Position numbers and translations under genes: made by a program
Source of the DNA: Streptomyces davaonensis JCM 4913
GTDB taxonomy: Bacteria > Actinomycetota > Actinomycetes > Streptomycetales > Streptomycetaceae
DNA length: 64,000 bases
Direction: 5' to 3'
Assembly (NCBI RefSeq): GCF_000349325.1
Contig: NC_020545.1
Location: 1-64,000 of the forward strand
Shown here: positions 101 through 24,104 of the stretch, piece by piece
Numbering within the stretch: the stretch's first letter is position 1
Layout of the letters: each line of letters starts with the position of its first letter
Notes under the pieces: model-generated
Database searches by the model: none
Seen by the model: the letters and a program-made list of their open reading frames with translations, nothing else
What the model was told of the DNA's origin: nothing

Positions 101-1285
101 GTGGGGGTCGCTCGTTCGTGTGGGTTCCAGTGTATCGCGTGCATCAGGTTGATGCAGCATGTACCGTTGGCGGAAACAAGAGACACCCCCCAACCACCCG
201 GGCGGGGCGCCGGAAGCGAGGACTCTTTGAATCCGTCGAACTTCGAAAAGGAAATCCATCATGAGGTTACTTCGGGATCAGACCCGGATCTGATCCGCTA
301 TCGCATCGTGGCGCAGCGCACCGATCCCGAGCACCCGGGCGCGTCGGTGGTGACGAACTACGCCTATGCGCGGTCGGTCGAGGGGGCCGTCACCAAGGCC
401 CGCAAGGCGCTGGAGAGGCCGGACGGCCTGTACGGCGACCAGGGCATGTACCGCGTGGTGGAGGTGGTCGAGGAGAGCCCGTCCAGCGAGCTCCGGCAGC
501 AGGAGGAGGCGCGCCGGCGGTACCTCACCACCATCCTGGAGAACGCCATCGCCACCGTGCGAGGCCGTGAGCCGGACAACCCGGATGTGGACCTGGTCAG
601 CCGCCTGAACGACTTCTTCACCCGCGCCGTCACCTTCCCTGACCCGCACACCAGCGGCGTGCACCCCCGGCCCCACCAGGCCACCTTCGGCTGGACCAGC
701 GAAAAGCCCTACATCCAGCACGCCAGCGACCCCGGCCGCGCCCTGGCCCTGTTCCTCCTGGCCTACCTGGACCACCACGGCCTGGCCCTGACGGAAGCAT
801 CCGCCCCGGCCCACCTGGAGCGGGAAGGCCGGCATGCCGCCGACCATGACGGCGCAGAGGAGGGGAGCGAGGCGTCCCTGGAGCTGATCGAACGGACCCT
901 GGCCGTGTGCGAGCAGCACTACATGGCCGTGACCGGCGCCGACTCCACGCAGTGGGACAAGGAGCTGTCCCGCGAGCTGGTGGGTGTGGCGCTGCGGACC
1001 GTGCGTCTGGCGGACCGGAAGGCGTACCCGCAGGCGCTGGAGGAGTATCTGGTTGAGAACCGGGCGCGGCTGGAGAAGCTGTGGCGCGTCTACGGGCCCG
1101 CTGGGGTCTTCCCGCAGGGCGTCTACCACCTGGTTGAGTTGCCCGAGTCGTTCGTGTTGTGCGAGCGGATCGACAACGCTCCGAGGTGGCTCAAGGGGGT
1201 CTGGGGCAGGGAATGCGAATCGGACACCCCGCTCGAAAGGTTTGAGGAAGCCTGGCGGTATGGCACGAGTGAGGGGGATGGATGA
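101..1285 (+). CDS. hypothetical protein upstream of helicase
   Basis: I do not recognise this protein. The open frame is 394 aa. From about residue 62 on it has normal streptomycete codon use and an acidic soluble composition, without membrane segments or clear motifs. The start is uncertain. The frame opens at GTG 101 in unconvincing sequence, the next in-frame ATG is 152, and a GTG at 308 is also possible. A well-placed AAGGA precedes an ATG at 261, but that ATG is in another frame and stops after 10 codons. The stop overlaps the helicase start by 4 bp (ATGA), so the two genes are probably translationally coupled and may work together. Confidence 0.6.
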   Translation: MGVARSCGFQCIACIRLMQHVPLAETRDTPQPPGRGAGSEDSLNPSNFEKEIHHEVTSGSDPDLIRYRIVAQRTDPEHPGASVVTNYAYARSVEGAVTKARKALERPDGLYGDQGMYRVVEVVEESPSSELRQQEEARRRYLTTILENAIATVRGREPDNPDVDLVSRLNDFFTRAVTFPDPHTSGVHPRPHQATFGWTSEKPYIQHASDPGRALALFLLAYLDHHGLALTEASAPAHLEREGRHAADHDGAEEGSEASLELIERTLAVCEQHYMAVTGADSTQWDKELSRELVGVALRTVRLADRKAYPQALEEYLVENRARLEKLWRVYGPAGVFPQGVYHLVELPESFVLCERIDNAPRWLKGVWGRECESDTPLERFEEAWRYGTSEGDG

Positions 1286-4200
1286 TGAGCAGGATTCCGC
1301 TCAAGAAACATCAGGTCGACCAGAAGTCGGCTTTTCGTAGGTGGGTCGGATTCCCTGCAAGGTCATCTGTGCCCCCACAGGGTGCCCGTGGCACGATCGT
1401 GTCAGCGACCGGGTCCGGGAAAACGATCATGGCTGCCGCGAGCGCGCTGGAGTGCTTCTCCGAGGGCCGGATCCTCGTGACCGTGCCGACCCTGGATCTG
1501 CTCGTGCAGACTGCCCAGGCGTGGCGGGCGGTGGGTCACCGCTCCCCCATGGTCGCGGTGTGCTCGCTGGAGAACGACCCAGTGCTGAACGAGCTGGGGG
1601 TGCGCACCACCACCAACCCGATCCAGCTCGCCCTGTGGGCCGCCCACGGGCCGGTCATCGTGTTCGCCACGTACGCCTCTCTCGTGGACCGCGAGGACTT
1701 CGACGACCCGATGGGCCAGGGGAAGGTTCGCGGGCCGCTGGAGGCCGCTCTGGCGGGCGGAGAGCGCCTGTACGGCCAGCGCATGGACGGCTTTTCGCTC
1801 GCCATCGTGGACGAAGCCCACGGAACCGCAGGTGATCTTGGCAGGCCGTGGGCGGCGATCCACGACAACGCCCGCATCCCCGCCGACTTCCGGCTCTACC
1901 TCACCGCGACCCCACGCATCCTCGCCGCGCCCCGGCCTCTACGCGGGAAGGACGGCCAGGAGCTGGAGATCGCGAGCATGGCCGACGACCCGGACGGCAC
2001 ATACGGGTCGTGGCTGGCCAAACTCGGACTCTCGGAGGCGATCGAGCGCGAAATCCTCGCGGGGTTCGAGATCGACGTCCTGGAGATCCGCGATCCCTCG
2101 CCCGTCCTCGGGGAGTCGGAGGAGGCGCAGCGAGGCCGGCGCCTGGCCCTGCTGCAGACCGCCCTGCTGGAGCACGCGGCGGCCTACAACCTGCGCACGA
2201 CCATGACTTTCCATCAGAAGGTGGAGGAGGCGCAGGCGTTCGCGGAGGCGTTGCCGAAGACCGCTGCCGAGTTGTATGTCACCGACACCGATGACGAGAC
2301 GATGGTGAAGGCGGAGAAGGAGCTGCCCGCGTCGTCGATCGACGCGGAGTTCTACGGGCTGGAGGCCGGCCGCCACGTCCCGCCGGACCGGGTCTGGTCG
2401 GCGTGGCTGTGCGGCGACCACCTCGTCAGCGAGCGCCGTGAGGTCCTGCGGCAGTTCGCCAACGGCATCGACGCCGACAACCGGCGCGTACACAGGGCGT
2501 TCCTCGCCTCAGTTCGAGTCCTCGGGGAAGGCGTCGACATCACCGGCGAGCGCGGGGTGGAGGCGATCTGCTTCGCCGACACCCGCGGCTCCCAGGTGGA
2601 GATCGTGCAGAACATCGGCCGCGCACTGAGGCTGAACCGCGACGGCTCCACCAAGGTGGCCAGGATCATCGTGCCTGTCTTCCTGGAGCCGGGCGAGGAC
2701 CCCACCGACATGGTGGCCAGCGCGAGCTTCAAGCCGCTCGTGGCCGTACTCCAGGGCCTGCGCAGCCACGATGAGCGCCTGGTCGAGCAGCTCGCCTCCC
2801 GCGCCCTCACGCGTGGCAAGCACGCCCGCAAGGTCCACGTCCAGCGCGATGAGGACGGCCGGATCGTCGGCGCCGACGGCACGGGCGATGGCGAGGACCA
2901 GGATCACGACGACACCCAGGACGCCGCCGAATCAGCCCTGCTCCACTTCAGCACCCCCCGGGACGCGGCGACCATCGCGGCCTTCCTGCGTACGAGGGTG
3001 TACCGACCGGACTCGCTGGTGTGGCTGGAGGGCTACCAAGCCCTGCTCCGCTGGCGGGCGGAGAACGAGATCACCAGCCTGTACGCGGTCCCGTACGACA
3101 CGGAGACCGAGGTCGGCGTCACGAAGGACTTCCCCCTCGGGCGGTGGGTGCACCAGCAGCGGAAGGCACTGCGGGCCGGAGAGCTGGAAGAGCGACGCAA
3201 GGAGCTCCTGGACGCGCCCGAGGCCGGGATGGTGTGGGAACCGGGCCAAGAGGCGTGGGAGAGCAAGCTCGCCGCGCTGCGCTCCTACCGGCAGGCCACC
3301 GGGCACCTCGCCCCACGCCAGGACGCGGTCTGGGGCGAGGGCGACTCGATGGTGCCGGTCGGGCAGCATGTGGCCAATCTCCGGCGCAAGGGCGGCCTCG
3401 GGAAGGACTCTGACCAGGCCGCGGAGCGCGCGCAGCAGCTGACGGCCATCGACCCGGACTGGGACTGCCCGTGGCCGCTGGACTGGCAGCGGCACTACCG
3501 GGTGCTCGCCGACCTGGTCGACGCCGACGGCGTCCTGCCCGAGATCCAGCCCGGCGTGCTGATGGACGGTGATGACATCGGGCGGTGGCTGGAGCGGCAG
3601 AAGAATCCGGGCACCTGGGCGCAGTTGTCCGCGGAGCAGCAGGAGCGGCTGTCCACGTTGGGCATACAGCCCTCTGAGACGCCTGCTCAGGCCCCGGCGG
3701 CCACGCGCGCGGCGAAGGGCCCGGGCAAGGCGGAACAGGCGTTCCAGCGCGGCCTGGCGGCCCTTACGCAGTGGGTCGAGCGGGAGGGCGCCAACCGGGC
3801 GGTGCCGCGCGGGCACGGCGAACAAATCACGGTCGACGGCGAGACGGAGCCGACGCTCGTGAAGCTGGGGGTATGGACTTCGAACACCCGCGCGAGGTGG
3901 GACAAGCTCACTGCCGAGCAGCAGGCCGCCCTCGCCGCGCTGGGCGTTCCCTGGGCCAAGGCCTCAGCGCTGCCGGCCCCGTCCAGCGGACCGGCTCCGA
4001 CGAGCGGCGGCCCGGCACAGCCCATGCCACCGGATGTGCCGAAGCAGGGGCAGCATGTCCCCCACGCCGACACGCTGACGGACAAAGAGCGCGAAGCCGA
4101 GGCGGCCCGCGGCCGGGCGCGCATGCAGCGCCTCGCCGAACTGATGCGCAAGCACACCAAGGCCGAACTGCTGCGCATGGCCTACGCGGGCGGCCTGGTG

Positions 4201-4449
4201 AACCACAACTCCCCCGAGAAGTGGCGCAAGGAAGAGATCGCCTCCACCGTCGTGGACATCGAGCTCCGGGCCGCCGCCCGGGCCAGCGCTGACCAGCCTC
4301 CCGGCCCGTTGGCGTCGACCGCCCCGCCGAAGCGGCCGCCGGTACGGCACCACCATGACGAGTGCGACACGGTGCTGTACGAGGGCGGCGCCTGCACCTG
4401 CGACCTCATCGAGCAGTACGGGCCACCTTCCGAACGGGACGACTACTGA
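1282..4449 (+). CDS. DEAH-box superfamily 2 helicase with helicase-associated repeats
   Basis: A 1055-aa superfamily 2 helicase. Walker A (ATGSGKT) is at residues 42-48, the DEAH box at 177-180, motif III TATP at 208-211, and motif VI QNIGRALR at 443-450. The C-terminal half holds helicase-associated (HA) modules starting near W659 and F821, a DNA-binding repeat seen in large actinobacterial plasmid and chromosome-arm helicases. A His/Cys-rich tail (HHHDEC, then CTC) follows. The start overlaps the previous gene's stop (ATGATGA). A 16-bp perfect terminator lies 49 bp after the stop. Helicase-like genes near the ends of Streptomyces linear replicons (the ttrA type) have been linked to transfer; whether this one is related is inference. 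Confidence 0.85.
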   Translation: MMSRIPLKKHQVDQKSAFRRWVGFPARSSVPPQGARGTIVSATGSGKTIMAAASALECFSEGRILVTVPTLDLLVQTAQAWRAVGHRSPMVAVCSLENDPVLNELGVRTTTNPIQLALWAAHGPVIVFATYASLVDREDFDDPMGQGKVRGPLEAALAGGERLYGQRMDGFSLAIVDEAHGTAGDLGRPWAAIHDNARIPADFRLYLTATPRILAAPRPLRGKDGQELEIASMADDPDGTYGSWLAKLGLSEAIEREILAGFEIDVLEIRDPSPVLGESEEAQRGRRLALLQTALLEHAAAYNLRTTMTFHQKVEEAQAFAEALPKTAAELYVTDTDDETMVKAEKELPASSIDAEFYGLEAGRHVPPDRVWSAWLCGDHLVSERREVLRQFANGIDADNRRVHRAFLASVRVLGEGVDITGERGVEAICFADTRGSQVEIVQNIGRALRLNRDGSTKVARIIVPVFLEPGEDPTDMVASASFKPLVAVLQGLRSHDERLVEQLASRALTRGKHARKVHVQRDEDGRIVGADGTGDGEDQDHDDTQDAAESALLHFSTPRDAATIAAFLRTRVYRPDSLVWLEGYQALLRWRAENEITSLYAVPYDTETEVGVTKDFPLGRWVHQQRKALRAGELEERRKELLDAPEAGMVWEPGQEAWESKLAALRSYRQATGHLAPRQDAVWGEGDSMVPVGQHVANLRRKGGLGKDSDQAAERAQQLTAIDPDWDCPWPLDWQRHYRVLADLVDADGVLPEIQPGVLMDGDDIGRWLERQKNPGTWAQLSAEQQERLSTLGIQPSETPAQAPAATRAAKGPGKAEQAFQRGLAALTQWVEREGANRAVPRGHGEQITVDGETEPTLVKLGVWTSNTRARWDKLTAEQQAALAALGVPWAKASALPAPSSGPAPTSGGPAQPMPPDVPKQGQHVPHADTLTDKEREAEAARGRARMQRLAELMRKHTKAELLRMAYAGGLVNHNSPEKWRKEEIASTVVDIELRAAARASADQPPGPLASTAPPKRPPVRHHHDECDTVLYEGGACTCDLIEQYGPPSERDDY

Positions 4450-9705: not shown

Positions 9706-10641
9706 TCAGCCCAAGCGGCAGCTGAGGAGCGCGAAGCCAGCTGCCGCCGCGCGGTGCTGGTAGGCGCGCAGTCCGGACGCGCCGGGGGGTGCGGGCTGGC
9801 GGGCGCTGCGGTGCCAGTGGCCGGTGAGTGCGGCGAGAAACGCGGTGGTGGTCTCGGGGCTGCTGGCGGTGGCGGGATGGTCGCGGAGCAGCCGGGCGAC
9901 GTCTGCGGGTGTGTGTCCGGCGAGGATGAGCTGCGGGGCGAGGGAGGCGGCGTCGATGCAGGCCGGACCGGTGGTGGCGTGTGCCCAGTCCACGAGGGTC
10001 ACGCCAAGGTGGTGGTCGCGGACCATGTTGTCGGCCCGCAGGTCGCCGTGGACGATGCGGTCGCCGTGGGCGAGGCCGGGCCAGGCCGCCTCGAGTTCGG
10101 CGAGCTGCGGAAGGCGGTCGCGGGCGGCGGGGGCGAGGTCGGCCGGCGGATCGGCGAGCAGTTCGTCCCAGCCGTGCAGGGCCGCCGTGGTGGAGGACGT
10201 GCCGTTCACCGCTGCGGCGTAGGGGGCGGGGGCGGGGCTGGAGGTGATTTTGTCCAGCAGAGCCCAGGTCTGTTCGGCGTCGCCGGAGGCCGGGGAGAGG
10301 TCGGGGTGCGGGCCGTCCAGGTGGGCGATGACGACGGCGGTCCAGTCGGCGGCGCGGTGGATGCCCAGCAGGTCCGGGGCCGGGGCGCCGGGCGGCAGCG
10401 AGCCGAGGACGGCGGCCTCGTGGACGTTGGCGTCGGTCAGCGGGTCGTGGTCGGGGGCCGCTTTGACGAAGGCCCGCTGGCCGTCGGCCAGGGTGAGCGC
10501 GGCGGCGAGCTGGTGGCCGAAGCCGCCGGCGGGGGTGACCGTGTCGGTGACGGGTGCGCCGAGGGCGTCCTCGAGGCGGGCGCGCAGGGGTGTGGGGACG
10601 TCGGTCCATTGCAGGCGGCCGCTGGTGGGCGGTACAGGCAT
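9706..10641 (-). CDS. aminoglycoside phosphotransferase-family kinase
   Basis: A 311-aa member of the APH/choline-kinase fold. The catalytic loop HGDLRADN is at residues 198-205, the Mg-binding segment LVDWAHA starts near 216, and a lysine in FVKAAP (K60) fits the ATP-anchoring position. The family phosphorylates hydroxyl groups of small molecules. It is the last gene of the leftward enzyme cluster and is separated from the HAD gene by 214 bp holding a hairpin, so it may be expressed less or separately. The substrate is unknown. Antibiotic resistance is possible, but the context with a phosphoribosyltransferase and a nucleotidyltransferase argues for a biosynthetic or modifying role. Confidence 0.8.
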   Translation of the reverse strand: MPVPPTSGRLQWTDVPTPLRARLEDALGAPVTDTVTPAGGFGHQLAAALTLADGQRAFVKAAPDHDPLTDANVHEAAVLGSLPPGAPAPDLLGIHRAADWTAVVIAHLDGPHPDLSPASGDAEQTWALLDKITSSPAPAPYAAAVNGTSSTTAALHGWDELLADPPADLAPAARDRLPQLAELEAAWPGLAHGDRIVHGDLRADNMVRDHHLGVTLVDWAHATTGPACIDAASLAPQLILAGHTPADVARLLRDHPATASSPETTTAFLAALTGHWHRSARQPAPPGASGLRAYQHRAAAAGFALLSCRLG

Positions 10642-10809
10642 CGGGGTAGCTCTCAGAGGTCCGGGAAACGGGTGGCGGGGTGATGGGGGCGCGCCGAGCC
10701 GGACCGCGAGTCGGGCTGAGGAACGAGGTCCTCAGTGCTCCAGCTCGACGCCGGGTGCTCGTCGCCGCATCACGCGCATTCGCCTGTGTCCTCTGGATCA
10801 GAAGTGCAA

Positions 10810-10833
10810 AGGGGCGCCCCTAGGGACGCCCCT
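10810..10833 (-). terminator. hairpin between HAD and kinase genes
   Basis: AGGGGCGCCCCT pairs with AGGGACGCCCCT with one mismatched pair. It lies 23 bp after the HAD stop on the minus strand and could be a terminator or an attenuator of the last gene. Confidence 0.5.
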
Positions 10834-10855
10834 CCACTGTAGTGGCCCGGTTGGG

Positions 10856-11515
10856 TCACGTGCTGCCGATTAGGGGCAGGTGGTGCATCAGGCACGGCCC
10901 GATGCTGGCGGGCTCGGGCAGGAGGTGATCGGCCCCGGCGGCGCGCAGGGCTGCGGGAGGGTGCCAGCCCCAGACTGCGCCGAGCGCGACGACTCCGGCG
11001 GCGCGGGCCGCGGTCATGTCGGTGGGGCTGTCCCCGACGTACACCGCGCGTTCCGGTGGGACGTCCAGTTTGCTCAGGGCGGCGTGCAGTCCGTCCGGGG
11101 CCGGTTTGGGCCGGGTGTCCTGGCGGGTGATGACGACGTCCAGCAGTTCGGCCACCGTCGGCGGCAGCAGCCACCGCAGGCGGTCGGGGTCTTGGAGGGT
11201 GACCGCGCCGGTGGCCGTGCCCTGCGTGCGCAGGGCCAGCAGGCCGGAAAGCACGCAGGGGAACGGCTTGACGGGGTTGGCCGACATGGCGCCGTCCCAC
11301 CAGCGGTCGCAGGCGTCGTCGGGGTCGGCGACGTCCAGGAGCGCCAGGACCTCGATGCGGGGGCGGCGCAGCGCGCCGGGTGGAAGGTCGCCCGGGGTCA
11401 CGCGGCGTCCGAGAGCGCAGGTGGCGACCGCCGCGAGGGTGGAGCGCACCGCGTTGGCGCTGTCCAGCAGCACCCCGTCCAGGTCGAACAGTGCTGCTTG
11501 GCGGGTGTCCGTCAC
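10856..11515 (-). CDS. HAD-superfamily phosphatase
   Basis: 219 aa. HAD motif I is FDLDGVLLD (nucleophile D11, acid D13). A helical cap follows. Motif II/III appears as a VITRQDTRPKPAP stretch, and motif IV as YVGDSPTDM near residue 165. This is the phosphoglycolate phosphatase/beta-phosphoglucomutase-like subgroup; such enzymes dephosphorylate sugar or nucleoside phosphates. The GTG start overlaps the phosphoribosyltransferase stop (GTGA), so the two are translationally coupled. Confidence 0.85.
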   Translation of the reverse strand: MTDTRQAALFDLDGVLLDSANAVRSTLAAVATCALGRRVTPGDLPPGALRRPRIEVLALLDVADPDDACDRWWDGAMSANPVKPFPCVLSGLLALRTQGTATGAVTLQDPDRLRWLLPPTVAELLDVVITRQDTRPKPAPDGLHAALSKLDVPPERAVYVGDSPTDMTAARAAGVVALGAVWGWHPPAALRAAGADHLLPEPASIGPCLMHHLPLIGST

Positions 11516-12039
11516 CGGGCACCGTCCGGGTCTCGGACCAGGGCGCGCAGGACCAGGTGGTGGTCGGCGAGCAGGGCGGTGGCGCCCGCGTCCCGGTCCA
11601 GGACGCACACGGCCGTGCCGACCAGCGCGCCGCCGATGCGCAGCAGGCGGGCGCTGCGCAGGAGGCTGGTGCCGCTGCGGGCGGTGTCGTCCAGCAGGAC
11701 GGTCCGCCGGCCTGCCAGGTCGGCGCCCTCGATCTGCTGCCACGTGCCGTGGTCCTTCGGTGCCGGGCGCAGGAAGGCGGCGGGCAGACCGGTGTGCAGG
11801 GATACCGCCGTGACCAGCGGGACCCCGGCCAGCGCCGGACCTGCCAGGGCCTCGGTGCCGGCGGGCAGCAGTTCCGCGAGCGCGGCCGCGGTCTCCGTCA
11901 GCAGCTGAGGGTCGCCGGCCAGCCGGTAGGGGTCGAAGTAGTTGTCGAGCGTGCCGCCGTCGGGGAGCCGGTAGGGGCCTGGCCGGTAGGCGACGGTGGC
12001 GATCTTCTCCGCGAACGGGGCGGTGGCAGGCGGGTTCAT
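11512..12039 (-). CDS. orotate phosphoribosyltransferase-like protein
   Basis: A 175-aa type I phosphoribosyltransferase. The PRPP-binding loop reads TVLLDDTARSGTS (D117, D118), preceded by strand GTEALAGPALAGVPLV and followed by VGTAVCVLDRD. The arrangement is like PyrE, which joins a base to PRPP. It lies in a coupled operon (ATGA overlaps at both ends), far from any pyrimidine pathway gene, so the substrate is probably a different base or it runs in the salvage direction. The start is set by the overlap with the LOG-like gene. Confidence 0.8.
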   Translation of the reverse strand: MNPPATAPFAEKIATVAYRPGPYRLPDGGTLDNYFDPYRLAGDPQLLTETAAALAELLPAGTEALAGPALAGVPLVTAVSLHTGLPAAFLRPAPKDHGTWQQIEGADLAGRRTVLLDDTARSGTSLLRSARLLRIGGALVGTAVCVLDRDAGATALLADHHLVLRALVRDPDGAR

Positions 12040-12602
12040 GAGGCGCACCGCCCGGCGGCGAGGGCCTTGAGGTCGGCGGTGAGCGCTTCGGCGTCGGGGA
12101 GCTCTCGCAGGAAGCCCAGGGGGCGGGTGGGGCTCTCGGTCAGCCATCCTTGGGCCCGCAGGAACGTGCTCAGGCGGCACGCGGTGGGGCCGAGCAGCCG
12201 TACGGGCAGGGAGCGGATGGTGGTGGCGTAGTACAGGGCGGCGGTGAGTTCGTGCAGCGTGCCCACGCCTCCGCCCATCGCGACGACCAGGTCCGCGTCG
12301 TCGAGGTAGGCGTGCAGCCGGTCCCCCATGGTCGGGGAGTACACGGTGGTGGTGACGAACGGGTTAAGGGCTCCCCAGTCGGGCCGGTCGGCCAGCGTGA
12401 TCGCGGTGACCGGCACGTGGTGGGGTGCGGCGCCGCGCGCGGCGGCCTCCATCAGTCCGTTGTAGCCGCCGTGCCGCAGGGCGTACCCGGCTTGGGCCAG
12501 TGCGGCGCCGGCCGCCTGTGCTAACGGTTCCTCGCCGTCCGGCGGGACGACCCCGGCGAACAGGGCCACGGTCAGGTCCGGGGCGTGGTCGGTGCGGGTC
12601 AT
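12036..12602 (-). CDS. LOG-like Rossmann nucleotide-binding protein
   Basis: 188 aa. Resembles the LOG / TIGR00725 family: GGYNGLMEAA at residues 45-54 and GGGVGTLHE at 110-118, where canonical LOG enzymes have PGGxGTxxE. The Pro is replaced, but the Gly-rich loop and Glu118 are kept. LOG enzymes release a base from a nucleoside 5'-monophosphate; SLOG relatives bind nucleotide-derived ligands. Four-base overlaps couple it to both neighbours. A role in making or sensing a nucleotide-derived compound is inference. Confidence 0.8.
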   Translation of the reverse strand: MTRTDHAPDLTVALFAGVVPPDGEEPLAQAAGAALAQAGYALRHGGYNGLMEAAARGAAPHHVPVTAITLADRPDWGALNPFVTTTVYSPTMGDRLHAYLDDADLVVAMGGGVGTLHELTAALYYATTIRSLPVRLLGPTACRLSTFLRAQGWLTESPTRPLGFLRELPDAEALTADLKALAAGRCAS

Positions 12603-13513
12603 GCCAGTCCTTCCTCGTGGTGCTGGTAGGCGCGGTACGCGGTGATCTCGTTGGCCAGCGCGTCGGTGGCGTGCGGGGCGATCCGCTGCGCGAGGCGCAC
12701 GATGCGGTCCAGGGCGTCGTCGGCCTGCGCCACGGTGGGGACCGGCGGGCTGGTCAGCGCCTCGGTCAGCTCGGTCAGGCACTCCCGGCCGGTGGCGGTC
12801 CGGCCCACTTCGTCGGGCAGGTGGTACCAGCCGTGGTGCCGGGAGTGCGGGACCAGCGCGGTGCGGATCACGTCTCGGCAGGTGGCGTTCAGGTCGTGCA
12901 GGAGGCCGTAGGCGATGTACTGCTGGCCCCTGGCCAGGCGCTTGCGGAGCATCGCGTGCAGCACCATCGCCTGGACCAGCAGATGGCCGCAGTCCACGGG
13001 GGCCTCCGCGGCCCGGGCGAGTTCCTGCGCCGTGCGCTGCTGGGTGTCGGCGTCGGCAGTGTCGTCGGCGCCGGGGCCCTGCCACAGCAGGCGGGGGCCG
13101 ATCCTGCGGCGCAGCGCCCCGACCGCGCTGGTCGGGCACAGGTACAGATCCAGTTGCAGCAGGTGGCCGTCGTTGGGCAGCAGGTAGACGAACCCGGCGC
13201 CGCCCAGGTTGCCGACGATGGTGTCCCGCCAGCCGGGCAGCAGGGTGCCGAAGGTGGTGGACATCAGCGCGTCCAGACTGTCCATCAGGGCGGGCAGCCG
13301 GTCGTCGCGGACGGCGACGACCAGGTCGACGTCGGATAACCGGTCCGCAGTACCGGCGGCGAGCGACCCGCGCACCAGCAGGTGCGTCACGGCCGTGGTG
13401 GCCGACAGGGCCTGGACCAGGTCGCCCAGGACGGCCAGCTGCGCCGGCCGGTGGGCGTGAGCCAGCTCCTCCAGCGGTGTCAGCCCGGCGGGCGGAAGAA
13501 CGGCGGTGGGCAT
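12599..13513 (-). CDS. nucleotidyltransferase-domain protein
   Basis: 304 aa. The N-terminal pol-beta-type nucleotidyltransferase motif is LLVRGSLAAGT followed by LSDVDLVVAV (G49, S50, D61, D63). A third acidic residue may lie in LLQLDLYLC. A helical C-terminal half follows, as in AadA-like adenylyltransferases. Such enzymes transfer NMP to a hydroxyl of a small molecule or protein. SD GAGAGGA precedes ATG 13513. Second gene of the leftward operon, 36 bp after the hydroxylase and overlapping the LOG-like gene by 4 bp. Substrate unknown. Confidence 0.8.
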   Translation of the reverse strand: MPTAVLPPAGLTPLEELAHAHRPAQLAVLGDLVQALSATTAVTHLLVRGSLAAGTADRLSDVDLVVAVRDDRLPALMDSLDALMSTTFGTLLPGWRDTIVGNLGGAGFVYLLPNDGHLLQLDLYLCPTSAVGALRRRIGPRLLWQGPGADDTADADTQQRTAQELARAAEAPVDCGHLLVQAMVLHAMLRKRLARGQQYIAYGLLHDLNATCRDVIRTALVPHSRHHGWYHLPDEVGRTATGRECLTELTEALTSPPVPTVAQADDALDRIVRLAQRIAPHATDALANEITAYRAYQHHEEGLA

Positions 13514-13549
13514 GCGGTGTCCTCTCGGGTGAAGGGATCGGGGCCGGGG

Positions 13550-14419
13550 TCAGGGGCGGGCGAGCAGGTGCGCTTTCGCCGCCCGCCACCGGCTCACGTC
13601 GGCGTCCGCGCGGCGGCCCGCGTGGAGTTCGGCGATCAGGTCGTACGCGCCGCCCTCCGGCAGGGCGTAGGTGTAGAAGGCGCGCAGCAGTGTCTGTTCG
13701 GCCGCGCCGGTGAAGCCGAGCTCCGCGAGCTGTCCGGCCTGCGCCAGGAGCCCGGCCCGGTCGGCCTCGGTCATCTCCGGCAGGTCGGCGGTGTCACCGT
13801 CGCGCAGGTGTTGGCGGGTGGCGAGGGCGTGGTAGGCGTCGTCTGCGTACACGTCGGCGATCAGGTGGAGCCGGTCCGGTCCCGTGGTGTTGCACACGCC
13901 GTGTGCCTGGGAGGGCGTCAGCCGCCACAGGGAGCCGGCCGCCATGTGGACCCGGGCCCCGGCGGTGACCAGGACGGCGGAGGGGTTGGTGACGAGCGGG
14001 ATGTGCAGGCGGTGGCGGCCGGTGTCGCGCAGTTCGGCGTAGTCGCGGTGCTCCCACAGGTAGGAGTGCGGCTCCAGGCGGGCCAGGCGCACGTACATGA
14101 AGTCCAGCCCCAACGAGTCGAGGAACCGCGCGGTCGCGGGCATGGCCTCCAGTAAGGAGGTGGGGCGTGGTCGTCCGTCGCCGATGACGACGTCGTGCGG
14201 GTCACCGGAGTGGTTCAGCAGCGACGTGGTCCACCAGCCGCCGGACTGGTACTCGCCGTACGCGACGACGCCGCGTGTCGGCGCCCCGAGCGCCTCAGCC
14301 CGCATCTGTTCGACCGTGGATTCCTCCAGGTCGACCAGCCGGGCAACCTGATCGAGCACCTCTGCCCGCATGGGGCCGGTCTGTGCCGCCGTGACGGCTG
14401 CGGGGAGTGTGGTCGCCAT
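13550..14419 (-). CDS. aspartyl/asparaginyl beta-hydroxylase-family oxygenase
   Basis: A 289-aa 2-oxoglutarate/Fe(II) oxygenase of the Asp_Arg_Hydrox type. The iron ligands fit H124-x-D126 (EHRDY) and H173 (SQAHGV), with RLHLIADVY near 183-191 supplying a 2-oxoglutarate Arg. Members hydroxylate Asp, Asn, Arg, Pro or free small molecules. The ATG has an ideal SD, AGGAGG, 5 nt upstream. It is the first gene of the leftward six-gene cluster, divergent from the TPR regulator at 14625, so the shared 205-bp gap probably controls both. Confidence 0.85.
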   Translation of the reverse strand: MATTLPAAVTAAQTGPMRAEVLDQVARLVDLEESTVEQMRAEALGAPTRGVVAYGEYQSGGWWTTSLLNHSGDPHDVVIGDGRPRPTSLLEAMPATARFLDSLGLDFMYVRLARLEPHSYLWEHRDYAELRDTGRHRLHIPLVTNPSAVLVTAGARVHMAAGSLWRLTPSQAHGVCNTTGPDRLHLIADVYADDAYHALATRQHLRDGDTADLPEMTEADRAGLLAQAGQLAELGFTGAAEQTLLRAFYTYALPEGGAYDLIAELHAGRRADADVSRWRAAKAHLLARP

Positions 14420-14509
14420 CGGGTCCTCCTGACACGTCGTCGGATCGCGGCCCTGGCGGGCAGCCGTGCAAGGACACCGCAGGCGCCAACTGCCGCACAG
14501 AGCGGTGGC

Positions 14510-14544
14510 GTTGCCGCCTGTTGCGGGTGGTTGCCGCCGGTTGC
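14510..14544. promoter_or_regulatory. direct repeats between divergent genes (operator candidate)
   Basis: GTTGCCGCCTGTTGC at 14510-14524 and GTTGCCGCCGGTTGC at 14530-14544 match at 14 of 15 positions and are spaced exactly 20 bp, two helical turns. The pair sits in the shared regulatory gap and is a likely site for the regulator at 14625. Confidence 0.5.
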
Positions 14545-14624
14545 CGTTCGCCTCGGGCGGCCTTCCCCCGCCCGCCGGGAGCCGGAAGACTGGTGTCGCC
14601 CGCGCCCGCGAAAGGGATGGGTCC

Positions 14625-15992
14625 GTGACCACTGACGCCGCCGAACGCCACCCGCTGGCCTACCTGCTGGCCGTGCGCGGGACGAACGCTGAGGCGTACC
14701 TGCTCCGTGTTGCCGAGCAGCACCAGCGCATGGGGTACGGGCAGATGGCGTACCGCAAGGAGAAGGCGTCCCGGTGGATCGCGGGCCTCTACGCGCCCAG
14801 CTACCACACCCAGCTCGCCATGGCCGCGCTCGAAGGCATCCCGCCCGAGGCGATCCACGCCCACGGCTGGCCGGGCTGGCTGCTGCTGGCCGTGCCGGAC
14901 CACACCCTCTTCACCCTCCCGTGGACGACCACGGGGGCGGTGCAGGCACTGGAGATCACAGGAGGTCCGGTGGACCGCAGGAAGTTTCTGATCACCACAT
15001 CCGCCACCCTGGGCGCCACCGTGGCGCAATGGTCCGCCGCCGCACCGGCGGGAGCCGCCCCCACTGCGGGCAGCCGGATCGGCACGGACGTCCCCGACCA
15101 CTTCGAGCGGCGCCTTGAGAGCCTGCGCCGGCTCGATGACACCGTCGGCTCCGGCGACGTCTACGACGCGGCCCGCACCGAACTCCGCATGATCAGGGCC
15201 ACCCTCAAGAGCGCGTCCTTCGGCGAAGGCGTGGAGCGCCGCTTGTTCGCCGCGGCGGCCGAAGCGTCCCGCAGCGCGGGCTGGACGGCCTACGACAGCG
15301 GGAAAGCCGCCGCCGCCGAACGCCACTACTCCACCGCCCTGCGGGCCGCAGCCAGCGCGGACGATCACGTGGTCGCGGCGAACACCCTCGCCTTCTGGGC
15401 CATCCAGCACTACTCCACCGGCGACCCACACGGCGCGGTCGACCTCGTCGAAGCCGCCCTGTCCCAGGCCCCAAGGACTGGCTCAGCCCGCCTGATCTCC
15501 ATGCTCCACGCCCGCGCCTGCCGGGCCCACGCGCACGCCGGTGACGCCCGGGCCGCCGACCGGTCCGCCAACGCCGCCCTGGACGCCTACGAACACGCAG
15601 GCCCCATCGAGGACGACCTCCCGTGCGTGTACTGGTACAACCTCGGTGAGGCCCACCAGCTCATCGGGAGCTCCGCCCTCAACCTGGGCAACCCCAAGCG
15701 GGCCGTCGTCCACTTCCTGGAAGCCTCCGCCGTTCACACCCGCCAGGAGGCGTACAACGGCGACGCCTTCCCCCGCGGCCACGCCATCTACCTGGCCCGG
15801 CTCGCCGAAGCCCACCTCAGCCTGGGCGACGTCGACGCCGCCGTGGCCACCGCGCACGACGCCGTCGACCGGATGGGAGGCGTCACCTCCGCGCGCGGCA
15901 CCAGCACGCTGGAAGACCTGCGCAGGAAACTCGCCCGCCGCCGTGGCATCCCCGCCGTCGCCGACTTCCTGGACTACACCGACACCGAGTGA
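14625..15992 (+). CDS. TPR-type transcriptional regulator
   Basis: A 455-aa protein. The N-terminal 90 residues are predicted DNA-binding, of the type seen in Streptomyces cluster-linked regulators (LAYLLAVRGTNAEAYLLRV, KEKASRWIAGLYAP). A linker with DRRKFLITTSATLGATVAQW, resembling a Tat-like or hydrophobic motif, follows. Then come TPR-like helices to the end (EAAAAERHYSTAL-type repeats, YNLGEAHQLIGSS, YLARLAEAHLSLGDVDAA). GTG 14625 is preceded by AAAGGGA. Divergent from the enzyme operon, it most likely controls it, perhaps in response to a ligand or partner bound by the TPRs. Confidence 0.7.
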   Translation: MTTDAAERHPLAYLLAVRGTNAEAYLLRVAEQHQRMGYGQMAYRKEKASRWIAGLYAPSYHTQLAMAALEGIPPEAIHAHGWPGWLLLAVPDHTLFTLPWTTTGAVQALEITGGPVDRRKFLITTSATLGATVAQWSAAAPAGAAPTAGSRIGTDVPDHFERRLESLRRLDDTVGSGDVYDAARTELRMIRATLKSASFGEGVERRLFAAAAEASRSAGWTAYDSGKAAAAERHYSTALRAAASADDHVVAANTLAFWAIQHYSTGDPHGAVDLVEAALSQAPRTGSARLISMLHARACRAHAHAGDARAADRSANAALDAYEHAGPIEDDLPCVYWYNLGEAHQLIGSSALNLGNPKRAVVHFLEASAVHTRQEAYNGDAFPRGHAIYLARLAEAHLSLGDVDAAVATAHDAVDRMGGVTSARGTSTLEDLRRKLARRRGIPAVADFLDYTDTE

Positions 15993-18190: not shown

Positions 18191-19246
18191 TCAGCGGCTG
18201 GCGGGCTCGGGGTAGCGACGGCGGCGCCGGTCCGGGTCGTCGACGCCGATCTCGTACCAGGGCTCGCCCCGCTGGAGCCGGGGCAGGGTGTTCACCCACA
18301 CCGCGACGGCGATGCCCTTCACGTCGTCGGCAAGCGCCTGGAGGCGGTTGTCGAGCAGGTGCTCCTCCTTGCCCGCCAGGACGACGTGCAGCCGCGGGAA
18401 GGTCTTCGAGCGGGTGTAGCGGTGGCGCTGCCAGAACGGGAACGTGCCCCCGATCGTGCCGCGGGCGCCTTCCCAGACGCGGTGCCCGGCGTAGCGCTCG
18501 TAGTCCCAGACCTCCTTGGCGAGCCGAGCCTGGGACATGGTGCCGTTGTCGAGCTCGAAGAGGCGCACCTCGCTGGTCTTGGTCGGCAACGCGAGGACGG
18601 CGTCGGTGTTGAAGCTCAGGCCGGTCTCCTTGATGGCATGGTTGACCTCCACCTGCCAGTCGGTCAAATGCTTGCGGCCGCCGAAGGCCAGGATCATGTC
18701 CGTCACCGCGACACCGTGCGGACCAAACCCGGCAAGAACGGCCTTCGCTCCGGTGCCGGCCTTCGGTCGCAGAGGCAGCTCGCTGCCGTCTGCCAGAGCC
18801 TTCTGTCCCGCCGGAGTCAGGTTCCAGATCGGGTGCTTGCCCGCCTTTCCGTTCGTCTCCGCCAGCCCGAGATCCGCCAGCTTCTTCATCGCCCTGCGCA
18901 CGTACGACCGGCCATCCGACTCCTCCTTCGTGATCACCTCAGCCATCTGCCGCACCGTGGCTATCCGCACGCACCCCAGCATCCGCAGCGCATCGGCCCG
19001 CACCTTGGCCGCAGGGGTGGACTTCTTCCCCTTCGCCGATGTCTCAGAGGAAGGGAGAGAGGTGTCATCGTGCCGGGAGGCACCCTGGCGGGCGGTGTGA
19101 GCTGCGGTGATGGGCACGACATTGGAATCGTTCACGGCACCGTTCACGACACTGGACTCCGGGCCGCCCACAGGCCGCTCAGCACCCCATGACCAGGTCG
19201 GGCGCGGCTCCGGCTCGGGCTGCCGGGCGCTGCTGGCGTCCGTCAT
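18191..19246 (-). CDS. replication-relaxation family protein (copy 2)
   Basis: 351 aa. A disordered N-terminus of about 75 residues is followed by a winged helix (ALRMLGCVRIATVRQMAEV, RRAMKKLADLGLAET), then VAVTDMILAFGG, DAVLALP and EVRLFELDNGTMSQARLAKE. These correspond in order to the core of the copy at 6326-7222 (PDALLYY, FVEVDRATMGPERLAAK). Glu and Asp in these strands may be catalytic. SD AGGAG lies 7 nt before ATG 19246. The two copies are clearly divergent, so this is not a recent duplication. Confidence 0.75.
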   Translation of the reverse strand: MTDASSARQPEPEPRPTWSWGAERPVGGPESSVVNGAVNDSNVVPITAAHTARQGASRHDDTSLPSSETSAKGKKSTPAAKVRADALRMLGCVRIATVRQMAEVITKEESDGRSYVRRAMKKLADLGLAETNGKAGKHPIWNLTPAGQKALADGSELPLRPKAGTGAKAVLAGFGPHGVAVTDMILAFGGRKHLTDWQVEVNHAIKETGLSFNTDAVLALPTKTSEVRLFELDNGTMSQARLAKEVWDYERYAGHRVWEGARGTIGGTFPFWQRHRYTRSKTFPRLHVVLAGKEEHLLDNRLQALADDVKGIAVAVWVNTLPRLQRGEPWYEIGVDDPDRRRRRYPEPASR

Positions 19247-19367
19247 GACGAAGCTCCTCACACAGGTGGCGCAGGGGTCCGGATGGAATCCCGCTGTCAC
19301 CTGGTAGAGGTGTCGTGAAAGTCGACGGTGTGACACTCCGCTGAGCGCCGTTACCGAGCCGTGATCG

Positions 19368-23369: not shown

Positions 23370-24104
23370 ATGGCACGGATCACCGCGCTCATCAACCGCA
23401 AAGGCGGAGTCGGCAAGTCGACTCTCACCGTCAACCTTGCGGCCATCACCGCTCATGTCCTGGGCGAGTCCCCCGACGGCGAACCCGACTACGTGGCGGC
23501 CGTCTCATCCGACCCTCAAGGCTCCACCACTTGGTGGTCCGAACGCGTCGGGGACGATCTTCCCTTCTCCTTCATCCAGACCCGCTCTCGCGCAGACCTC
23601 GCCTTCTTCCCTGAGCTCAAGAAGTCTCGCAAGGTCAAGCGAGGGTTCATTGACACCCCAGGTTGGATTGACCTCCCTGAGGACGAGAAGCAGCACGCCG
23701 GCGATCCCTTCGGCGAGAGCGCCGCTGCCGACGCGATGCGCGCAGTCCTTGAGGTCGCCGATGACGTCATCGTCCCCATCGAGCCCGAGCCGCTCGGCTT
23801 CATGCCTACGCGCGACACCATCGAGGAAGTCGTCAAGCCGCTCGGCAAGCAGTACTGGGTCGTCATCAACAACTGGGATCCCCGCGACGGCGAGGCCGAC
23901 CTCGAGCAGACGAAGAACTTTGTCCTGGGACAGGGTTGGAACCTCGCCAAGACCGTGATCCGCCACTACAAGGTCCACACTCGAGCCGCTCTCGAAGGCC
24001 TGGTTGTCACCCAGTACAAGAAGAATCGGGTCGCGATGGAAGCCCGCGAGGACTTCTACAGGCTCGCCCTCGAAGTGGGGGCCGGGAAGAAGGGCCAGGT
24101 TTGA
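23370..24104 (+). CDS. parA: ParA-type partition ATPase
   Basis: 244 aa. The deviant Walker A motif KGGVGKST is at residues 11-18, immediately after an N-terminal strand as in small (type Ib-like) ParAs with no HTH. FIDTPGW supplies the Walker A' / switch segment near residue 93, and DDVIVPIEPEPLGF is the Walker B region. GGAG lies about 10 nt before the ATG. It overlaps parB by one base (TGATG). It would form ATP-dependent dimers on nucleoid DNA and move ParB-bound plasmid. Confidence 0.92.
   Translation: MARITALINRKGGVGKSTLTVNLAAITAHVLGESPDGEPDYVAAVSSDPQGSTTWWSERVGDDLPFSFIQTRSRADLAFFPELKKSRKVKRGFIDTPGWIDLPEDEKQHAGDPFGESAAADAMRAVLEVADDVIVPIEPEPLGFMPTRDTIEEVVKPLGKQYWVVINNWDPRDGEADLEQTKNFVLGQGWNLAKTVIRHYKVHTRAALEGLVVTQYKKNRVAMEAREDFYRLALEVGAGKKGQV

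Follow-up and report, generated by a model that had tools for sequence, protein, structure and literature searches.

In two published systems, as set out in the accessible parts of the two accounts, an extra aminoacyl-tRNA synthetase protects the cell that makes the compound. The agrocin 84 cluster on plasmid pAgK84 contains the self-immunity leucyl-tRNA synthetase AgnB2 (PMC5059758), and the ascamycin (acm) cluster contains the alanyl-tRNA synthetase (AlaRS) AcmD (PMC12945691). Both are precedents for the reading favoured here of an operon in Streptomyces davaonensis JCM 4913, located within the first 64,000 nucleotides of contig NC_020545.1 (assembly GCF_000349325.1; hereafter the window). 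The operon contains genes for a hydroxylase, a nucleotidyltransferase (NT), a LOG-type protein, a phosphoribosyltransferase (PRT), a HAD phosphatase and an APH-fold kinase, and is divergent from a regulator gene (Table 1). With a probability of roughly 0.6, we consider it a mobile biosynthetic operon for an amino-acid/nucleotide antimetabolite directed against alanyl-tRNA charging, in which AlaRS or the kinase would act as interchangeable self-protection. Literature searches returned no paper on this gene set.

Homologues of the NT, searched with a 30-sequence alignment, led to 42 loci in genomes sampled one per species. Together with five plasmid records (L018-L022, out of 12), four short loci from the genus and the window, they formed a comparison set of 52 loci; this set excluded L001-L008, which were other APH genes of the window's own genome, and L013-L017, which were weak or partial NT matches (E of 1e-5 to 7e-4). 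The 48 loci longer than 5 kb were judged, leaving out L009-L012 (under 5 kb), and the core was called complete when all five genes reached set length thresholds. The orphan loci described below (L132-L135, L159-L166) lie outside the 48. The locus set and the genus counts overlap in part and include near-kin pairs (L031/L061, L036/L040, L047/L049), and are thus not independent.

The core order hydroxylase-NT-LOG-PRT-HAD was found in Streptomyces, Kitasatospora, Actinacidiphila, Planobispora, Nocardia, Micromonospora and Actinoplanes. Because this order recurs across actinobacterial families, the gene set is beyond chance. The slot after HAD was occupied by APH in the window's clade and by a full-length second AlaRS in most relatives. 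A complete core was present in 40 of the 48 loci, 31 with AlaRS and nine with APH; none had both and none had neither. Among the 31, AlaRS was split or partial in L028 and L032 and cut by the contig end in L049. The four loci with neither gene (L024, L033, L038, L060) all had a broken or partial core. AlaRS was present in L031 and L063, where HAD was short or missing (it was not detected in L063, from Kibdelosporangium), and in L055, where all genes were in pieces. A Streptomyces chartreusis plasmid outside the count carried APH and four of the core genes, while the fifth, NT, was split into two in the annotation. In the window itself, an AlaRS profile search found no AlaRS gene, and APH stands in the slot. 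The first-pass annotation had described an uncharacterised six-enzyme pathway with its own regulator, to be checked by a neighbourhood search. The set does co-occur in other actinobacteria, contrary to the failure to co-occur that the annotation had named as grounds for dropping its proposal; the operon is conserved, uncharacterised and divergent from a regulator gene as described, but the neighbourhood comparison resolved the six enzymes into a five-gene core and an exchangeable sixth gene.

The exclusion of one gene by the other was also seen across 392 genomes of the genus, in which no more than 5, 5 and 2 candidates were scored in each genome and the scan for operon AlaRS was blind to the Nocardia type. 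NT was found in 11 of them, with nine full matches, of which three were accompanied by APH (G000, G019, G374) and six by operon-type AlaRS (G012, G290, G292, G299, G369, G382). The remaining two, G128 (truncated) and G399 (55% complete), had neither gene at the thresholds used; G399 occupies the same position as L055, in which AlaRS is fragmented. At the same thresholds, APH and operon-type AlaRS occurred together in 0 of the 392 genomes. Among the APH-type genomes, five of six had one full-length AlaRS and none was found in G201; the window's genome had a single AlaRS.

Either protection gene was kept after loss of the core in some genomes. Intact APH without NT was found in G107, G110, G158 and G277. 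In G277 it lies beside the last 51 residues of HAD (L161), and in G377 an intact AlaRS lies beside the last 62 residues of HAD (L160), while in G158 a truncated PRT is followed by HAD and APH (L134). APH stood alone in L132 and L133, and AlaRS stood alone in L159; by genome, AlaRS was alone within the 20 kb viewed in G345 and at a contig edge in G156. On plasmids pSacid_B21-078-1 and pSGZL, APH or AlaRS adjoins a gene for a regulator; the annotation shows none of the core genes in the vicinity, and neither plasmid gave a match to NT. Pairwise ratios of nonsynonymous to synonymous substitution rates (dN/dS) were 0.20-0.39 between intact orphans and core-linked copies and 0.23-0.37 between core-linked pairs, a likeness that supports retention weakly, as the paths compared include history before the loss. 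A role in self-protection is suggested because an intact core always comes with one of the two genes, because other lineages have in its place the other gene, of unrelated chemistry, and because either is kept after core loss. Two further observations concern the orphans: another APH of G277, which has a frameshift, lies some 300 kb from the intact one (L162), and the operon-type orphan AlaRS of pSGZL (L168) adjoins a helix-turn-helix regulator gene, with a type I-E CRISPR-Cas locus a few kb away.

The four AlaRS copies scanned, two from operons and two orphans, contained tRNA-synt_2c, tRNA_SAD and DHHA1 domains, and the slot gene of plasmid L021 was annotated as alaS. The operon AlaRS kept the conserved motif residues and editing residues, to which we assign what are presumably their usual roles, and is probably active because both these residues and the domains are retained. 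The presence in the slot of a second AlaRS with conserved motifs therefore makes AlaRS the likely target. A tree of 45 AlaRS sequences was built from 29 operon rows of the 34 AlaRS loci and 16 housekeeping copies, none of them from Micromonosporaceae; L045 (same sequence as L021) and the partial or broken L028, L032, L049 and L055 were omitted. The operon copies fell into a Streptomyces/Micromonosporaceae group (23 rows, support 100/100) and a Nocardia/Kibdelosporangium group (six rows, 100/100), and a single operon-AlaRS clade was rejected (approximately unbiased test, p = 0.015). In a core tree built from hydroxylase and NT (43 rows, omitting L009-L012, L024, L033, L038, L045 and L055), the protection label required at least three changes among three states, or four counting L060, which has none. 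L056 formed a long branch on this tree, and its placement was unsure. In addition, a gene for a GNAT acetyltransferase, judging by the one member scanned (L036:15570-16112 and 11 other AlaRS loci), was convergent with AlaRS and within about 100 bp of its end in 12 of 12 cases; it might provide additional protection.

AlaRS and the kinase might instead be biosynthetic: AlaRS would supply alanyl-tRNA or alanyl-AMP for attaching alanine to the product, and the kinase would complete the molecule in the other branch. The retained motifs of the operon AlaRS would suit such a role, and so would ascamycin, where, by the accessible part of the account, AcmD is in addition the source of the Ala-tRNA that AcmF uses for transfer (PMC12945691). 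We nevertheless regard this explanation as unlikely. Each of the 18 AlaRS-type genomes tested already had, in addition to the operon copy, a housekeeping AlaRS (divided between contigs in G204), and a profile search of the 52 loci found a single AlaRS gene in each AlaRS-type locus (fragmented in L032 and L055) and no separate truncated AcmF-like one. Both genes survive as intact orphans where there is no core, and the chemistry of a synthetase is unlike that of a kinase, yet the two share one slot and exclude each other.

Alignments showed that the presumed catalytic residues were preserved within the family of every enzyme, their roles being those we take them to have. The hydroxylase matched Asp_Arg_Hydrox (PF05118, 7.8e-16), and its profile matched, among solved structures at E ≤ 0.1, only L-proline cis-4-hydroxylase (4p7w, 2.4e-19) and 1e5r (2.7e-17), which is listed as a proline oxidase and which we take to be a 3-hydroxylase. 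An HxD...H triad and an arginine ten residues past the last histidine (H124, D126, H173, R183), presumably the iron and 2-oxoglutarate (2OG) ligands, were invariant (n=21). The two proline hydroxylases belong to the same family and share this ligand pattern, although the kinship is distant. The first-pass annotation had envisaged hydroxylation of a base; because only proline hydroxylases, which act on the free amino acid, were matched among solved structures, an amino acid is the likelier substrate. The NT scored weakly against NTP_transf_2 (0.0016, 19.2 bits, cut-off 21), and the best matches of its AlphaFold2 model were LinB/ANT enzymes, with which it shares the fold of the catalytic domain and the catalytic aspartates, although the overall superposition was poor. 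Described LinB/ANT enzymes inactivate antibiotics; unlike them, the NT sits in a biosynthetic core.

The LOG protein matched PF18306 (SLOG/LDcluster4, 4.1e-12) and PF03641 (Lysine_decarbox, 1.8e-8), and its profile matched LOG enzymes such as 5zi9 (3.2e-12). Its motif GGGxGTxxE and its R95 and E118, spaced 23 residues apart and presumably catalytic, were kept, the latter two being invariant (n=20). The PRT matched TIGR00336 (pyrE-like) at 2.1e-23 and 83.0 bits, under the cut-off of 106.8, and its profile matched the human orotate phosphoribosyltransferase (OPRT) 2wns at 2.3e-28. The DD and R(S/T)G of the phosphoribosyl pyrophosphate site and the arginine of the OPRT-type DR motif were kept, and the lysine of LKSG was lost; we assume that this lysine and arginine serve the orotate site. 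In view of the score below cut-off and the lost lysine, the protein is called OPRT-like rather than OPRT. HAD matched PF13419 (HAD_2, 8.7e-20), with D11, D13, T106, K137, D162 and D166 invariant (n=18). The kinase matched Pfam APH (5.5e-8) and has its fold in common with three self-resistance kinases, corramycin phosphotransferase, capreomycin phosphotransferase and AmiN.

In the favoured reading, the hydroxylase would make a hydroxy-amino acid, and the NT would attach a nucleotide to the new hydroxyl, yielding a stable compound that imitates alanyl-adenylate; in geometry, the O-nucleotide of a 1,2-amino alcohol corresponds to an aminoacyl-adenylate. LOG, PRT and HAD may then adjust the base and phosphates, and the product would block AlaRS. 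Immunity would come from a second, tolerant AlaRS or, in the window, from the kinase, which would inactivate the compound through phosphorylation, and the NsdA-type regulator may control the operon through the repeat array described below. This specific sequence of hydroxylation, nucleotide transfer and adjustment of base and phosphates is doubtful as a detailed scheme; a minimal form of it would match L056, which has only hydroxylase, NT and APH. A wider formulation, which we offer tentatively and put somewhat short of even odds, is that such operons form a widespread mobile class of tiny actinobacterial clusters without a polyketide or peptide synthase, making a hydroxy-amino-acid nucleotide that mimics alanyl-adenylate. 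The protection slot would be swappable, with AlaRS recruited at least twice or APH in its place, and orphans would mark past exposure.

Several observations weigh against the favoured reading. LOG, PRT and HAD are not always present, since L056 has the hydroxylase, NT and APH only. L060 has the hydroxylase and NT only; the first of the NT's catalytic aspartates is replaced (D to N), and an upstream gene resembles nonribosomal peptide synthetases (AMP-binding, PP-binding, thioesterase). No recognised transporter was among the 15 gene clusters that recur in at least four loci (one without a Pfam match), leaving export unexplained. Seven of the ten APH-bearing genus genomes lacked NT, which was present in the other three, and APH was partial or broken in three of those seven (G325, G359, G392), so that APH in such genomes could have an unrelated or fading function; moreover, L132 and L133 are 99% identical and do not represent independent losses. 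Two AlaRS-like matches (E ≤ 1e-100) occurred in 16 of 199 genus genomes, only two of the 16 being operon-type; a second AlaRS is thus not special as such, and what sets it apart is its family and place. In Nocardia and Kibdelosporangium, AlaRS was on the opposite strand in five of six loci and hence not co-transcribed. Fixed differences between operon and housekeeping AlaRS were few and mostly unshared between the two lineages, and tolerance therefore cannot be read from the AlaRS sequence. The repeat array was not found in the promoters of AlaRS-type operons. The compound, its target, inhibition and resistance are put forward as proposals, as are the inactivating role of the kinase, the control by the regulator and the sequence of reactions.

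The regulator matched NF053720 (NsdA family, tetratricopeptide repeat, TPR) at 1.3e-84 and 285 bits (cut-off 75). A clear match to this model lay divergent beside the hydroxylase in 27 of the 48 loci, and a weak one (26 bits) in L054. For the GTTGCSG array, three overlapping pair-matches were found in the 64 kb against 0.01 expected, and chance is no explanation. The array was present in 10 of 167 loci (nine distinct), each time in a copy of the window promoter, and it is likely an operator, judging from the sequence. On the Streptomyces dengpaensis plasmid (L018:1058-3349), genes annotated as D-alanine--D-alanine ligase and pyridoxal-phosphate aminotransferase adjoin the regulator.

The operon is carried by a contig of 89,331 bp in a genome of 9.56 Mb. 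The contig termini are inverted copies of each other (198 bp, 94% identity), and the contig looks like a linear Streptomyces plasmid because of these ends and a helicase gene near one of them, together with the Replic_Relax and ParA-like proteins listed in Table 1. All six leftward genes and the divergent regulator were open reading frames of named families (Pfam, NCBIfam), as initially described. The hydroxylase and NT genes are separated by 36 bp and the HAD and APH genes by 214 bp; NT-LOG and PRT-HAD overlap by 4 bp, as does LOG-PRT if PRT starts at ATG 12039. For the family scans and the alignment, the PRT frame was taken to begin at 12066 and so had nine residues too many at the N-terminus.

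Table 1. Coordinates of the operon, its regulator and other features of the window.
Feature	Position	Strand	Remark
Helicase gene	1282-4449		Close to one contig end
APH-fold small-molecule kinase, 311 aa	9706-10641	-	Proposed self-protection gene; AlaRS instead in other clades
HAD-IA phosphatase, 219 aa	10856-11515	-	
PRT, orotate-phosphoribosyltransferase-like, 175 aa	11512-12039	-	Length from ATG 12039
LOG-type nucleotide phosphoribohydrolase-like protein, 188 aa	12036-12602	-	
NT, LinB/ANT-type nucleotidyltransferase, 304 aa	12599-13513	-	
2OG/Fe hydroxylase, Asp_Arg_Hydrox family, proline-hydroxylase-like, 289 aa	13550-14419	-	First core gene
Four direct repeats GTTGCSG, 10-bp spacing	14510-14546	+	Divergent promoter; candidate operator
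NsdA-family TPR regulator, 455 aa	14625-15992	+	Putative start GTG 14625; divergent from operon
Replic_Relax protein	18191-19336		
ParA-like protein	23370-24104		

Some copies lie on plasmids or in likely integrative elements. Near AlaRS-type operons, a relaxase-type cluster (L036:4791-6458; eight loci) and a DUF3631-type cluster (L028:1848-3134; five loci) were found, which suggests integrative elements, one member of each having been scanned. In L060 (3-5297), a fatty-acid-desaturase-family gene also precedes the hydroxylase and NT, and in L056 (14963-18117), repeated peptide units (VAGEDRN) in frames beside the hydroxylase, NT and APH suggest a CRISPR array.

This setting raises a second alternative, an intracellular toxin with its antidote, plasmid-stabilising or triggered by phage, in which loss of the plasmid or infection would expose AlaRS to the metabolite. 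The linear-plasmid ends, the relaxase-type and DUF3631-type clusters, the divergent regulator and the absence of a recognised recurrent transporter agree with it. The operon is not restricted to plasmids, as single-contig genomes such as G012 and G292 illustrate, and no relative was found in viral contigs. PADLOC models gave nine weak families matching the NT alone (best 8.3e-5) and no match for the other six proteins. We consider this alternative decidedly unlikely. It is very improbable that the product is a signal or protective modification derived from a nucleotide and that AlaRS and APH are cargo unrelated to it: LOG and PRT families do act on nucleotides, but one of the two genes accompanies every complete core and never both do, unlike unrelated cargo. 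Among the signal, antimetabolite and protective modification offered by the first-pass annotation, the antimetabolite is favoured, and nothing beyond the families themselves speaks for the other two.

If the antimetabolite reading is true, the operons would constitute a biosynthetic family without a signature synthase, aimed at AlaRS and findable by its immunity gene. The exchange of kinase and AlaRS would then amount to a natural experiment, pointing to the probable target before the compound has been isolated. To our knowledge, few natural inhibitors of AlaRS have been described, and we know of no kinase alternative in agrocin 84.

Compared with the known systems, as far as the accessible parts of their accounts allow, agrocin 84 is alike in having a plasmid-borne small-molecule cluster, an adenylate-like toxin and a second synthetase with conserved catalytic motifs that protects the producer (PMC5059758); it is unlike in its target, leucyl-tRNA synthetase rather than the alanyl-tRNA synthetase proposed here, and in its host group. 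Ascamycin is alike in being made by Streptomyces with an extra cluster AlaRS that resists an alanyl-nucleoside product (PMC12945691), and unlike in that acm has the truncated AlaRS-like transferase AcmF, not seen in the operon loci. The second full-length synthetase of both clusters is absent from the window and present in 31 of the 40 loci with a complete core (split, partial or cut by the contig end in three), and the housekeeping synthetase is likewise kept in 18 of 18 AlaRS-type genomes. The operon may be likened to both in its way of working. Membership of either family is not claimed, because the window has no second synthetase and no counterpart of AcmF was found. Protection of the producer by an additional synthetase is known from these systems, and what is new is the enzyme core, the exchange of kinase and AlaRS, and the mobile setting.

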